Below are positions 4,946 to 42,216 of a stretch of DNA of 42,710 nt, piece by piece. The notes under the pieces are model-generated. The model was given only the letters and a program-made list of their open reading frames with translations. It was not told where the DNA came from and ran no database searches. The stretch is from the IMG/VR virus record IMGVR_UViG_3300011115_000006, positions 1 through 42,710 of that record; one strand, written 5' to 3'. Position 1 is the first letter of the stretch. The number at the start of each line of letters is the position of its first letter. The DNA is from a virus. The position numbers were made by a program, and so were the translations under genes.

Positions 4946-5158
4946 ATGCATATAACATCAGTAATAGATTACTCCTATCCGATGATGGCGGCAGAGAAGT
5001 CGTTAAAGGCAGCACACCTATTTATGCTTGACAAGAAGTATGATGATGCTCTTGACGAACTACTTATTGCCGCTTCCGAAGTCAAGATGACTATAAATGC
5101 AATATGCCACATGAAGGAGCAAGAAGATGCCCTACGTAAACAAACCGAGACCGTATAA
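4946..5158 (+). CDS. Small hypothetical helical protein (70 aa)
   Basis: The ATG follows GAGGA seven bases upstream and sits two bases after the nuclease stop. The product is acidic and helical, with a helix-turn-helix-hairpin pattern (SLKAAHLFMLDKKYDDALD and LLIAASEVKMTINAI) that resembles a single TPR-like unit. No family was recognised. The downstream gene starts inside it with a 32-base overlap, so expression is probably coupled. Confidence 0.65.
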   Translation: MHITSVIDYSYPMMAAEKSLKAAHLFMLDKKYDDALDELLIAASEVKMTINAICHMKEQEDALRKQTETV

Positions 5159-5438
5159 AAAAGAGTACCAACAACAGTTGGCACGAGATGAACACGGCAA
5201 CCGCATGGAGCGCCAACGCGCACGGCGTGCGGTAGATAAAACAGGCAAGGATAGCAACCACAACGGCGAAGCTGATGCGCGTGAGGGTAAAGACATAGCC
5301 CACCGCAAGGCTCTATCCAAGGGCGGCTCCAACAAGGACGGATACTTTATCCAGTCTGCAACAGGTAACCGTTCATTCAAGCGCAGTTCATCCGGTGCTT
5401 TGGTATCCGAGGTCAGCAAGCGCGAACGACGTAAGTAG
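5127..5438 (+). CDS. Small basic protein with degenerate HNH-like segment
   Basis: A 103-residue, strongly basic and hydrophilic protein. The start ATG has AAGGAG eight bases upstream and overlaps the previous gene by 32 bases in another frame. Residues 55-86 (KDIAHRKALSKGGSNKDG, then NRSFKR) follow the spacing of small phage HNH proteins: an Asp/His pair, a GG turn, then Asn plus basic residues. The cysteines and full motif of an active HNH enzyme are absent. It may be a nucleic-acid-binding relative. The family is uncertain. Confidence 0.65.
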   Translation: MPYVNKPRPYKKEYQQQLARDEHGNRMERQRARRAVDKTGKDSNHNGEADAREGKDIAHRKALSKGGSNKDGYFIQSATGNRSFKRSSSGALVSEVSKRERRK

Positions 5439-5468
5439 AAACACCTACGATTCCAGTTCAAAAAATAC

Positions 5469-5497
5469 TTGACAAATAGGGTAGCCGCCCTTATAGT
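5469..5497 (+). promoter_or_regulatory. Near-consensus sigma-70 promoter
   Basis: TTGACA at 5469-5474, exactly 17 bases, then TATAGT at 5492-5497: a perfect -35 and a one-mismatch -10 at ideal spacing. A GGGTAGCCGCCC palindromic stretch fills much of the spacer (5479-5490) and might bind a regulator. Transcription should begin near 5503-5506. This is the only promoter of this quality noticed on the + strand, and it lies in the longest gap of the early region. Confidence 0.8.
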
Positions 5498-5502
5498 ATG
5501 TA

Positions 5503-5677
5503 GAAGCCGTAAGACGTGAGTGGGCCAAAGGGGGTTTGGCTAGCTTTGACCCTTTAACCGCGCCAGTTAATCAGTGGTCTGTCTCCTTTCGAGCCACGGG
5601 ATTGATCGTCTAGGACACGCAGACGTTAATGTGAAGTGGGGCAGGTGGAATCCCTGCAACCTTAGTTGAAAGTTAGT
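5503..5677 (+). ncRNA. Structured leader or small RNA of unknown class
   Basis: There is no gene in these 175 bases. Five stem-loops can be drawn by eye: GCCAAA/TTTGGC (5524-5529/5535-5540, loop GGGGG); TTAAC/GTTAA (5554-5558/5566-5570, 7-base loop); GTGG/CCAC with inner CTC/GAG (5574-5597); CGTCT/AGACG with outer ATT/AAT (5601-5630); GCAGG/CCTGC (5641-5645/5653-5657, 7-base loop). The first stem competes with an alternative 9-base pairing of 5522-5530 with 5544-5552 that has one mismatch, as in a switch. No T-run follows, so the transcript probably continues into the helicase gene. No known RNA family was recognised. A 5' leader, a processed RNA, an anti-termination signal or an origin transcript are all open. 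Confidence 0.5.
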
Positions 5678-7252
5678 ATGGAATTAGTTGAAGATTCAGC
5701 ATTGAAATTAAGTTGTCCCGCTGACATAGCGCGGACCATTCACACTTACATAGATAAGAGCGCCATCATAAGCAATGGGGCTGTGTCTGAGGTGCTCATA
5801 CATTTCGGTATTGACGAGATGCAACGGTTGGCACGTATCGCGCCGTACGAGATGAGGCTGCCATCCCCCATAGAAATAGATTACGACTGGCCCGGCATGT
5901 TCCAGCCATTCGATCATCAGGTGGATACCGCGCGCTTTTTAACCCTGCACAAACGTGCCTTCTGTTTTAACGAAGCCGGTACAGGTAAAACATCCGCAGC
6001 GATATGGGCTGCTGACTACCTGATGCGGCAAGGGGCGATCAAGCGCGTCTTAGTTATCTGCCCCCTCTCGATCATGCAGAGCGCATGGCAATCCGATCTA
6101 TTTAAAACCGCCATGCATCGTACGTGCGCCATTGCGCATGGAGTGCAGAGTAAACGTGAGAAAGTCATCAATGGTAAGTATGACTTTGTAGTCATCAACT
6201 ACGACGGTGTGAACGTGGTGGAGAAGGCCATACTCAAAGCCAACTTTGATCTGATTATTGTTGATGAGGCCAACGCATACAAGAACGTCAGCACAGTGCG
6301 CTGGCGTACCCTCTCTAGGCTGGTACGCGCTGATACATCGCTATGGATGATGACAGGCACACCCGCCGCGCAGTCGCCCGAGGATGCGTTTGGGCTTGCC
6401 AAACTGATTAACCCCAACGGCGTACCCAAGTACAAGACCGCATGGAAAGACATGGTGATGCACCAAGTGTCGCGCTTCCGTTGGTTGCCTAAACCATCAG
6501 CCAAAGACAAAGTGTTTGCTGCCCTACAACCAGCAATACGTTACGAAAAAGCCGAGTGCCTAGACCTACCTGACGTTATGTATCAGACACGCATAGTGCC
6601 GCTGTCAGTACAGGCCGCTAAGTACTACAAAGAGTTGCTAAGAGACATGCAGATTAAAGCTGCGGGTGAGACCATTAGCACAGTGAACGCCGCTGCATCC
6701 TTAACGCGCTTACTTCAATTGTCAGGTGGGGCCGTGTATACAGATGATGGCAACGTGATTGAGTTTGATGTATCGCCACGCCTCAAGGTATTGCAAGAAG
6801 TCATAGATGAAGCGCCACAAAAGATATTGATATTTGTGCCATACAAACATACGTTGAACTTGCTCAAGATCTATTTAGATACAAACGGTGTCAGCAATGC
6901 AATTATTTCCGGTGATGTAACCGCTACTAACCGCTCACAAATATTTAACAGTTTTCAGACCACTACAAACCCACGAGTCTTACTCATTCAACCACAAGCC
7001 GCATCGCATGGCGTTACGTTGACTGCCGCAGACACTGTGATATTTTGGTCCCCAGTCATGTCAGTAGAAACTTATCTTCAATGCATTGCACGTATTGATC
7101 GTGTGGGGCAGAAAAATAAGATGACAGTAATACACCTCCAAGGGTCTGAGGTGGAGCGTCGCATGTATGCCTTGTTGCAGAACAAGGTCGATTTGCACGA
7201 AAAATTGGTAGACCTGTATCGTGATGAAATAGAAGGAGAAATCAATGAATGA
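5678..7252 (+). CDS. SNF2-type superfamily 2 helicase/ATPase
   Basis: A 525-residue DNA translocase. Walker A is NEAGTGKT (K104). The Walker B box is DEAN (196-199). Motif III is MTGTPAA, and motif VI is Q468-CIARIDRVGQ, the SNF2-type form of QxxGRxxRxGQ. The last third holds the second RecA-like domain (KILIFVPYKHTL, then LLIQPQAASHGVTLT). Small SNF2 proteins of this kind are common in phage replication blocks and are thought to help fork progress or recombination. A TTG at 5666 would add four residues but has no ribosome-binding site. ATG 5678 with GAAAG upstream is preferred. The stop overlaps the next ATG. Confidence 0.93.
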   Translation: MELVEDSALKLSCPADIARTIHTYIDKSAIISNGAVSEVLIHFGIDEMQRLARIAPYEMRLPSPIEIDYDWPGMFQPFDHQVDTARFLTLHKRAFCFNEAGTGKTSAAIWAADYLMRQGAIKRVLVICPLSIMQSAWQSDLFKTAMHRTCAIAHGVQSKREKVINGKYDFVVINYDGVNVVEKAILKANFDLIIVDEANAYKNVSTVRWRTLSRLVRADTSLWMMTGTPAAQSPEDAFGLAKLINPNGVPKYKTAWKDMVMHQVSRFRWLPKPSAKDKVFAALQPAIRYEKAECLDLPDVMYQTRIVPLSVQAAKYYKELLRDMQIKAAGETISTVNAAASLTRLLQLSGGAVYTDDGNVIEFDVSPRLKVLQEVIDEAPQKILIFVPYKHTLNLLKIYLDTNGVSNAIISGDVTATNRSQIFNSFQTTTNPRVLLIQPQAASHGVTLTAADTVIFWSPVMSVETYLQCIARIDRVGQKNKMTVIHLQGSEVERRMYALLQNKVDLHEKLVDLYRDEIEGEINE

Positions 7253-7669: not shown

Positions 7670-8509
7670 ATGAGTAATCAACTCGCAACACTTATGGGTT
7701 CATCCGAATTGGTTGAACTTGGTCTTGATGAAGATACCCTTGCCGTAGCTGGCGGGGCTACAAAAGGTAACAAGCGCATCTCTATTGATGGTCGTGTGTT
7801 CCGCAAGTTTGTTGGTGGTAAGGAAGTCAGCGTTAATTCTGACTTGTCGATGAACGTTATCTTTGTAAAGATGGCGCATGATGCATCGCGTACCTATTAC
7901 AACCAGCAATACAAAAAGGGCGTTAAATTGTCCCCCGCCTGCTGGTCTAACGATAGCAAAACGCCTGACCCCGAAGTGACTGCGCCGCAAGCCGCATCAT
8001 GCGCTGAGTGCCAATACTCAGTTAAGGGTTCCGGTCAAGCTGGTACAGGCTCCGCTTGCCGCTTGTCTTGGCGCACTGCTGTAGTGTTACCCAATGACCC
8101 GGCTGGTGACGTGTATCAGTTGGTCTTGCCTGCTACAAGTACGTTTGGTAAAGAAGAAAATGGTCGTTGGCCCTTCCGCCCCTTTGTGCAGATGCTGGCT
8201 AATAACAATGTGTCTGCTGGGCGCGTTGTGACCAAGATGGAGTTTGATATCAACTCTTCCGTGCCTCGCCTGTTGTTCTCACCTGTGAGCGCAGTGCCTA
8301 GCGAAAGCAAAGAAATCATCTTGCGTCAGAGCAAGTCGCTTGCGGCTGAGTCGGCAATTAAGCTGACCGTCTACAAGACTGATACACCTGACGAAGCTGA
8401 GACTGCGCAACCCGAGGTAGCACCTGTCAAGCGCGATACGGCCCGCAAGGTACAAGCTGAAACTGTGGATGACGTTAGCGATATCGTTAAGAAGTGGACT
8501 AAGAAATAA
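7670..8509 (+). CDS. Four-cysteine protein, possible ssDNA-binding protein
   Basis: A 279-residue protein with AAGGAAA before the ATG. Cys91, Cys111, Cys114 and Cys130 could hold a zinc ion. They interrupt a beta-rich region with aromatic residues (MAHDASRTYYNQQY; WPFRPFVQML). The C-terminal 60 residues are polar and disordered-looking (EAETAQPEVAPVKRDTARK) and end in a helix, VSDIVKKWTKK. The position between helicase, coiled-coil gene and primase, and the fold-plus-flexible-tail layout, suit a single-stranded DNA-binding protein, but no diagnostic motif is visible and the tail tip is basic rather than acidic. Treat the role as inference. The stop overlaps the next ATG (TAATG). Confidence 0.75.
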   Translation: MSNQLATLMGSSELVELGLDEDTLAVAGGATKGNKRISIDGRVFRKFVGGKEVSVNSDLSMNVIFVKMAHDASRTYYNQQYKKGVKLSPACWSNDSKTPDPEVTAPQAASCAECQYSVKGSGQAGTGSACRLSWRTAVVLPNDPAGDVYQLVLPATSTFGKEENGRWPFRPFVQMLANNNVSAGRVVTKMEFDINSSVPRLLFSPVSAVPSESKEIILRQSKSLAAESAIKLTVYKTDTPDEAETAQPEVAPVKRDTARKVQAETVDDVSDIVKKWTKK

Positions 8510-8850
8510 TGTCCCGCCGGTATAGCCCTGACCTGATTGAATCCGTGGCAAACATGGAGGTGTATCGCTTGGGTATGGACCTTGCCAAGGTCTGCATCGA
8601 AGCTAACTTACCCGCTGCGTATGTCGCACAAGTCTTTGGAACTACGAGAATGACTGTGCACACTTGGTTCAGAGGCGGGGCTATTCGGCATAAAAAACGA
8701 GCGAAGATAGAAGTCTTTATCCAATTAGTCGAGGAGGATATTAAACGAGGAATCTTGCCAGCCAAGACCCTCAGTGATGCAATGACTTACTTACAGGACA
8801 TGGTAGACAGTCCTATTGAGAAAGCAAACGCAAAGCAAGCGCAGGACTGA
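8509..8850 (+). CDS. Helix-turn-helix protein
   Basis: A 113-residue protein started from a one-base overlap (TAATG). Residues 25-58 form a clear helix-turn-helix: LAKVCIEANLPAAYVAQVF, then GTTRMTVHTWFRGG, then a basic RHKKRAK flank. The C-terminal half is helical. It may regulate phage transcription or recruit the primase. It is the last gene before an intrinsic terminator. Confidence 0.75.
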   Translation: MSRRYSPDLIESVANMEVYRLGMDLAKVCIEANLPAAYVAQVFGTTRMTVHTWFRGGAIRHKKRAKIEVFIQLVEEDIKRGILPAKTLSDAMTYLQDMVDSPIEKANAKQAQD

Positions 8851-8869: not shown

Positions 8870-8892
8870 AGCGGAGGTGTCTCCGCTTTTTT
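8870..8892 (+). terminator. Intrinsic terminator or attenuator
   Basis: AGCGGAG (8870-8876), a GTGT loop, CTCCGCT (8881-8887), then six T (8887-8892): a 7-bp GC-rich stem with a U-tract, the standard rho-independent layout. It ends only 12 bases before the primase-helicase start codon. No promoter or ribosome-binding site was seen in between, so it may act as an attenuator rather than a hard stop. Confidence 0.8.
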
Positions 8893-41656: not shown

Positions 41657-41902
41657 TCAGCAATTCCAAGCTTTCAGAGATTTATTGATACGGGAATTCG
41701 GGTCTTTCGCCGTCTTCTCGCTGGTAAGTTTCTTCTTCATCCCAGTCATCCTTGCGCAGAAGGAGTCGCGCCTGCTGCCGCCTTCCGGCTGGGGAGGTTT
41801 TAAATTCATCCCTTGCTTTTTCGCCGAGGCGCGTCCCTTGGCGTTCAGGCCACCATTGGGATTCTTGCCTTCTTTGCGTGTCCATGCTGGTGACTTAGCC
41901 AT
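41657..41902 (-). CDS. DUF6321 protein
   Basis: An 81-residue protein. The pattern AWTRKEGKNPNGGLNAKGR, then LKPPQPEGGSRRDSFCARM, then KDPNSRINKSLKAWNC matches the phage DUF6321 family across its whole length. Function is not established. It is small, basic and well conserved, often near structural genes. The start overlaps the previous gene by eight bases. Confidence 0.85.
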   Translation of the reverse strand: MAKSPAWTRKEGKNPNGGLNAKGRASAKKQGMNLKPPQPEGGSRRDSFCARMTGMKKKLTSEKTAKDPNSRINKSLKAWNC

Positions 41903-42173
41903 AAAACACTACTGCCGTTGTAGTTGCTGAAACCACTGCGGAGATGTTAGTACTGCATTTAATGCCTTCGCCGGGAAATACCATGTAAATAGAACCCGCA
42001 GTCGCTGGCGCAGTAAAAGAAAACATAGCAGTGCCGCTTGTCCCGTCATTTAGTACAACAGTTGCGCCTGTTGAATAGCTAATCGAGATACCTTTAATGC
42101 GGGCTGGGCCAGCAAAAATAGTGGTGGTCGCACCAGCCGCCGCTGCGCCTGATTTAACGTCGGTTTGCATCAT
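41895..42173 (-). CDS. Small beta-rich virion protein
   Basis: ATG 42173, with AGGAG seven bases ahead, gives 92 residues; a TTG at 42179 is less likely. The sequence (TTTIFAGPARIKGISISYS; VLNDGTSGTAMFSF; SIYMVFPGEGI) is strand after strand with few charges, the form of small decoration or tail proteins recurrent in aquatic phages. The function is not known. Confidence 0.7.
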   Translation of the reverse strand: MMQTDVKSGAAAAGATTTIFAGPARIKGISISYSTGATVVLNDGTSGTAMFSFTAPATAGSIYMVFPGEGIKCSTNISAVVSATTTAVVFYG

Positions 42174-42216
42174 AATCAATCTCCTATGAATCAGGGGCCG
42201 AAGCCCCCGAGATTAA

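Follow-up and report, generated by a model that had tools for sequence, protein, structure and literature searches.

In riboswitches of the preQ1-II type, the last loop of an H-type pseudoknot carries an additional hairpin, and the put anti-terminator RNA of phage HK022 is a short two-hairpin element that occupies a leader position after a phage promoter. GOLLD and ROOL are phage non-coding RNAs of unknown function which are located near tRNA genes (PMC12286853). The gene 32 operator of phages T4 and RB69 is a 5' pseudoknot upstream of the ribosome-binding site of a replication gene, from which binding of the autoregulating protein nucleates; the T4 pseudoknot overlaps an upstream homing-endonuclease ORF (PMC535899). 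In this study, we describe the leader of a SNF2 helicase gene in a virus record of 42,710 bases, which is called the window here. As judged from comparison of related loci, this leader is a genuine folded RNA with a pseudoknot.

The SNF2 helicase gene (Pfam SNF2-rel_dom and Helicase_C; PHROG DNA helicase) is located at 5678-7252 on the plus strand, as are all features of the leader. Its start is ATG 5678, with TTG 5666 as a possible alternative, and a weak Shine-Dalgarno sequence, GAAAG, is present ahead of the ATG at 5668-5672. The initial annotation had proposed a TTGACA-17-TATAGT promoter followed by a non-coding leader, and both features proved to be real. The promoter (5469-5497) is sigma-70-like, matches the consensus at 11 of 12 positions and is the top match of its kind in the first 12 kb of the window; both hexamers and the 17-nt spacing are conserved in the relatives L049 and L053. 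Transcription is expected to start near 5503-5505, a position predicted from the promoter sequence. The gap between ORFs, at 5439-5677, measures 239 nt and is the third largest in the window for the ORF set chosen here; the largest, of 413 nt, is located at 41804-42216. Directly before the leader lies ORF 5127-5438, in which an HNH-like motif, H..ALSKGGSN, was recognised by eye and for which a Pfam search returned no match. No terminator-like site was found between the leader RNA and SNF2 in the window. A terminator-like hairpin with a T run is present further downstream, at 8870-8887 inside the operon, between ORF 8509-8850 and the primase/helicase gene.

A search with the SNF2 protein identified 597 viral contigs, the best 80 of which were fetched, and the DNA ahead of the SNF2 start was found to hold a conserved RNA in most of these best 80 of the 597. 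From 5' to 3' the family consists of hairpin S1, a variable hairpin, the bases AAC, the strand CRYRYC, helix P1 and an exchangeable 3' slot, followed by the ribosome-binding site and the start of SNF2. The stem of S1 varies freely in sequence and its 14-nt loop is conserved (GTNAGGYRYGAGTG; consensus G-T-N-A-GGYRYG-AGTG). Six of the loop bases, GGYRYG, pair with the downstream CRYRYC and thus form the pseudoknot, which occurs in the variants GGCATG/CATGTC, GGTGTG/CGCATC, GGCGTG/CGCGTC, GGTACG/CGTACC, GACATG/CATGTC and GGCACG/CGTGTC. Helix P1, of roughly 7 bp, contains an internal loop and is capped by an apical loop rich in pyrimidines; UCUCC (TCTCC) is present in 69% of the P1 inserts compared with 6% of shuffles. 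The loop A and AGUG, and the AAC before the pseudoknot strand, are invariant and unpaired. In most relatives the 3' slot holds one simple hairpin, CCCCGTAAGGGG-type hairpins being found in 65 of 110 loci and the GGACA..AAAGAC type in others; in the window and four kin (L049, L053, L109 and L110) it is filled by a two-hairpin unit that we refer to as module B. Of 110 leader loci, 21 have a promoter scoring at least 10/12 immediately ahead of the RNA, compared with 0.4% of control windows, and since the -10 box of promoter-bearing members mostly ends 9-13 nt ahead of the loop, their transcripts should begin with S1. In most members lacking a strong promoter, the stop of an upstream ORF lies approximately 5-30 nt before the loop.

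The RNA of the window extends over 5503-5609 and was recovered at E 1.7e-14 by R2, a covariance model from which the window group had been left out (E-values given here are rough, the model calibration having been shortened). Hairpin S1 (5506-5525), supported by its conserved loop and by covariation, has a GCC/GGC stem (5506-5508/5523-5525) around the 14-nt loop GTAAGACGTGAGTG (5509-5522), so that GCC-GTAAGACGTGAGTG-GGC has the GTNAGRYRYGAGTG-type loop of the family. The pseudoknot (5513-5564) joins GACGTG (5513-5518) to CGCGCC (5559-5564); these positions were verified, the pairing is supported by family covariation, and five of the six pairs form, with an A-C mismatch at the second (5514/5563). 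The variable hairpin (5527-5555), AAAGGG/CCCTTT at 5527-5532/5550-5555, is replaced by ATGGGG/CCCCAT in L049 and by ATAGGG/CCCTAT in L053. Helix P1 (5566-5606), GTTAATC (5566-5572) with GATTGAT (5600-5606), contains 7 bp, two of them G-U; it shows double changes at all seven pairs and encloses an inner stem (5574-5577/5594-5597) and an apical loop containing CTCCTTTC. Module B (5603-5659) completes the leader with a hairpin at 5607-5625, the linker TTAATGTGAAGTGGG and a hairpin at 5641-5657 with the loop TGGAATC, SNF2 (5678) being next downstream; its model, R1, gives it 78 bits, the window sequence being among those from which the model was built. The window copy is a weaker example than most members, because its S1 has only 3 bp and its pseudoknot one A-C mismatch.

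These comparisons redraw the five stem-loops originally proposed for the leader. Relatives back 5574-5597, which corresponds to the inner part of the P1 hairpin, as well as 5641-5657 and, within 5601-5630, the core 5607-5611/5621-5625 only. Stem 5524-5540 is disrupted in L049 and L053, and 5527-5532/5550-5555 is supported instead, a pairing near but not identical to the alternative that had been suggested (5522-5530/5544-5552). Many relatives do not keep stem 5554-5570, which also competes with P1 and with the covarying pseudoknot; this stem and 5524-5540 were both rejected as not conserved. The S1 stem, the pseudoknot and the 7-bp helix of P1 were absent from the earlier drawing. Folding energy and covariation, both named at the outset as tests of the leader, gave opposite answers: 191 of 200 dinucleotide shuffles of 5500-5680 fold at least as well as the native sequence (z +1.57), yet covariation is strong and three stems are kept, so that the leader would have been wrongly rejected on folding energy alone. 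The minimum-energy fold of the window by itself disagrees with the covariation-supported structure and was set aside as uninformative.

In an alignment of 30 members with trimmed linkers, 94.2% of cells are paired, a percentage inflated for the pseudoknot and P1 by the choice of members after a script that rewarded their pairing. Fifteen of the 19 pairs change on both sides, including double changes at all six S1 positions and all seven P1 pairs, and the covariation score is 0.666, compared with 0.299 for shuffled and at most 0.125 for slid controls. For the pseudoknot alone, 98.3% of cells are paired (likewise inflated) and 21 cells are doubly changed versus 7.5 in shuffles. The untrimmed alignment of 21 members, excluding the window and its nearest kin, from which model R2 was made, gave 96.0% paired cells, 13 of 19 compensated pairs and a score of 0.659. 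With model R2, the four kin L049, L053, L109 and L110 reached E 2.5e-16 or lower. At E<0.001 the model also recovered 54 of 78 further SNF2 loci, 11 of which had contributed to it, and every one of these matches ends just upstream of SNF2. The RNA was also detected in 13 of a further 16 contigs tested, one of which carries two copies; one copy per contig is the rule. Approximately 30% of the fetched SNF2 relatives are without the RNA at E<0.001, so the gene can manage without it.

Two RNA-pattern scans that were blind to proteins and to S1 retrieved 144 contigs, each through a pattern fixing one pseudoknot pairing, which again inflates paired percentages for that element. SNF2 is located downstream in 136 of them and the remaining eight end within 325 nt, that is, linkage to SNF2 is exclusive in the 136 contigs long enough to judge. 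An S1 of at least 4 bp is present in 81% of the pattern-scan contigs versus 14% with shuffled partners; the selection bias does not account for S1 pairing or for the diversity of compensating pairs.

Rfam 15 at the gathering cut-off gave no matches in the window or in 18 other SNF2 loci, and in E-value mode nothing meaningful in the window up to E 10, in agreement with the first impression that no known RNA family was recognisable. ARAGORN found no tRNA in the window, and blastn of the leader against plasmids returned no match. Model R2 matched nothing significantly in the searched Pseudomonas, tRNA-region and cultured SNF2 loci. Among cultured phages, Rhizobium RHph_TM3_14A, Acinetobacter Effie, Pseudomonas Rollin and Xanthomonas Xp15 carry near SNF2 genes; in these four there is little or no gap before SNF2, and no leader RNA was found. 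A search of openly licensed papers also gave no description of the SNF2-leader RNA, and the family is so far unclassified.

Four functions had been offered for the leader, namely a regulatory leader for SNF2, an anti-termination RNA, a trans-acting small RNA and an origin transcript. The first is favoured by the linkage (136 of 136 contigs, one copy as a rule), and the last two are disfavoured, because no terminator precedes SNF2 in the window and most relatives are without a promoter of their own. Since it has been kept with matched double mutations before SNF2 in well over 100 contigs of uncultured phages and is absent from Rfam 15, the leader RNA is probably a new on-message control element. 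Our main reading, to which we assign a probability of roughly 55%, is that 5503-5609 is a member of a family of cis-acting operator or aptamer leaders controlling SNF2 translation in a large group of uncultured phages. The SNF2 message would begin with this RNA or include it through read-through from the preceding gene, the former where the leader has a promoter of its own, as in the window; being part of that message whichever way it is made, after a promoter or after an upstream stop, it argues for a cis role after initiation. It folds compactly into S1, the P1 hairpin and a pseudoknot that links the S1 loop with the bases just ahead of P1, a body that presents the invariant unpaired bases and the apical UCUCC loop. 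Most likely, this body would act as an operator or aptamer tuning SNF2 translation, plausibly bound by a small molecule or by a phage protein, the latter being autoregulation of the T4 gp32 kind, and the output would be access to the SNF2 ribosome-binding site. The structure (through covariation), its conservation, the cis link exclusive to SNF2 and the promoter as a conserved sequence are observed; regulation itself, its translational level and a bound ligand are what we infer. The UCUCC of the P1 loop is complementary in kind to Shine-Dalgarno sequences. Complementarity between the P1 loop and its own Shine-Dalgarno is not above that of swapped controls (mean run 4.48 vs 4.42), so masking by UCUCC is possible rather than demonstrated. 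The Shine-Dalgarno of SNF2 lies outside the pseudoknot.

Module B has a distribution of its own. In a sensitive blastn search of the leader against cultured phages only 5604-5658 matched, in Pseudomonas phages Fyn8 and P7869 (86%), whose differences from the window fall in matched pairs. Module B is a 57-58-nt unit found in some 75-80 IMG/VR contigs (by pattern scans and blastn, a few being chance matches). Forty-seven cultured Pseudomonas phages also carry it, among them D3, PAJU2 and PMG1 of P. aeruginosa. The consensus comprises a CGYCT-[9 nt]-AGRCG hairpin and a second one in which 5 bp close a TGGAANS loop, 15 nt apart and separated by the nearly invariant linker TTAANGTGAAGTG. Among 14 distinct sequences, none of the 140 cells is unpaired, and two-sided changes are seen at 4 of 10 pairs. 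Several further candidates were discarded: three matches in a genome-collection scan lacked the rest of the module and were taken as chance, weak 25-bit model matches in the bacterial genomes L097, L098 and L099 (E ~0.004-0.006 per genome, among 398 Pseudomonadota genomes) are probably chance, and matches in L079, L095 and L096, which fall in coding sequence, look like chance.

In P. aeruginosa phages module B is located in late leaders and tRNA regions, and its neighbours in Pseudomonas phages are variable hairpin modules. Several contigs carry a sigma-70-like promoter about 96-193 nt upstream of it and a T run 81-218 nt downstream, the T run being part of an intrinsic terminator in the contigs inspected directly; in others tRNA genes follow. 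Rfam searches of module B loci detected tRNAs only, and GOLLD and ROOL gave no match up to E 10 in the L042 and D3 regions. In L009 and L042 module B opens approximately 700 nt of apparently non-coding sequence ahead of tRNA genes. These stretches (L042 2530-3240; L009 5979-6700) have conserved ends and a variable middle and lie just before tRNA-Thr/tRNA-Trp, a GOLLD/ROOL-like setting, but they match no Rfam family.

Other features of these regions were noted in passing. A second conserved hairpin, GGTCAAAGGTGGAACCNGGTCCTACCNCGACC(TAATACT), occurs at ~1345-1387 of L094 (minus strand), 4364-4389 of L083 (minus strand) and 2588-2630 of L042; P. aeruginosa phages and L009/L042 share it with a 136.8-kb phage contig that is otherwise different, and it shows compensating changes by eye. 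Leaders of Pseudomonas phages are mosaics of hairpin modules whose order changes (L032 1990-2250, reverse complement; L083 4190-4390, minus strand), and which sit between a promoter or tRNA-Met and a terminator or tRNA genes. Annotated hypothetical proteins span module B and neighbouring hairpins at L088 6012-6326 (phage D3 orf86) and L001 3956-4279, and these ORFs are probably RNA-coding DNA mis-called as genes.

A bolder, two-part reading, which we offer tentatively, is that the pseudoknot body may be a new aptamer class timing replication-helicase synthesis, as a riboswitch or a protein-binding switch, and that module B may be a mobile RNA cassette exchanged between unrelated phages and plugging into their leaders. 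The recurrence of module B in P. aeruginosa phages, in late leaders where a promoter lies ahead of it and an intrinsic terminator or tRNA genes behind it, its location downstream of a Q-like anti-termination gene in PAJU2 and Ab31, and the terminator-like site at 8870-8887 would all suit a processive anti-termination RNA, in which the nascent leader binds host RNA polymerase so that downstream terminators are ignored (put-like) and the SNF2-to-primase operon is protected. We consider this unlikely, as nearly all SNF2 leaders lack module B, which is present in the window, L049, L053, L109 and L110 and is thus not what the family needs, whereas the pseudoknot body precedes one gene only, often without a nearby promoter. 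The place of S1, expected at the 5' terminus or shortly after an upstream stop, is what a 5'-end stability or processing element would show, with the pseudoknot shielding the SNF2 message from RNases or marking a cut from the upstream message; however, such a hairpin would need no invariant loop, pseudoknot or internal-loop bases, and we find this explanation improbable as well. A trans-acting small RNA, located before SNF2 by happenstance, would fit the window's own promoter and the compact fold, but a position always just ahead of SNF2, often promoterless, and in the window without a terminator-like site before the gene, makes it very unlikely. Slighter still are the chances of a new self-cleaving ribozyme: the fold is pseudoknotted and its loop bases invariant, but Rfam ribozyme families gave no match, no known ribozyme layout was recognised, and a regulator would more typically show such strict placement ahead of a single gene. 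Chance or non-functional spacer DNA, for which the folding energy might speak, is contradicted by covariation at 13-15 of 19 pairs, far above slid and shuffled controls, and by the match to a model made without the window group, and its probability is close to negligible.

The SNF2 leader is thus a structured RNA with good support that recurs in uncultured phages, matches nothing in Rfam 15 and accompanies a single replication gene. It provides a system for testing how phage DNA replication is controlled at the RNA level outside the T4, lambda and T7 models. Module B suggests that unrelated phages share parts made of RNA as well as genes, since the unit is present in an SNF2 leader and also in the late leaders that D3-like P. 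aeruginosa phages carry, where it can be tested in laboratory phages.

Compared with the known systems, module B resembles HK022 put in being a short two-hairpin leader element after a phage promoter, a likeness of layout. The SNF2 leader shares with preQ1-II riboswitches an H-type pseudoknot with an extra hairpin in the last loop, but differs in having no Rfam match, a Shine-Dalgarno outside the pseudoknot and no metabolite gene downstream. Like GOLLD and ROOL, module B is found near tRNA genes in D3-like phages, L009 and L042; unlike them, it is only ~57 nt long, its loci give no match even at E 10, and the window is without tRNA genes. With the gene 32 operator of T4 and RB69 no sequence relation was seen, the gene downstream is another one, the SNF2 leader is larger, adding P1 and the variable hairpin, and UUAAA repeats are not known to matter in it. 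Nevertheless, the SNF2 leader likewise places a pseudoknot ahead of the ribosome-binding site of a replication/recombination gene (PMC535899), and it directly follows an ORF with an HNH-like motif (by eye), as the T4 pseudoknot overlaps a homing-endonuclease ORF (PMC535899). The T4 gene 32 pseudoknot operator is thus the nearest precedent, to which the SNF2 leader appears analogous, with putative autoregulation.
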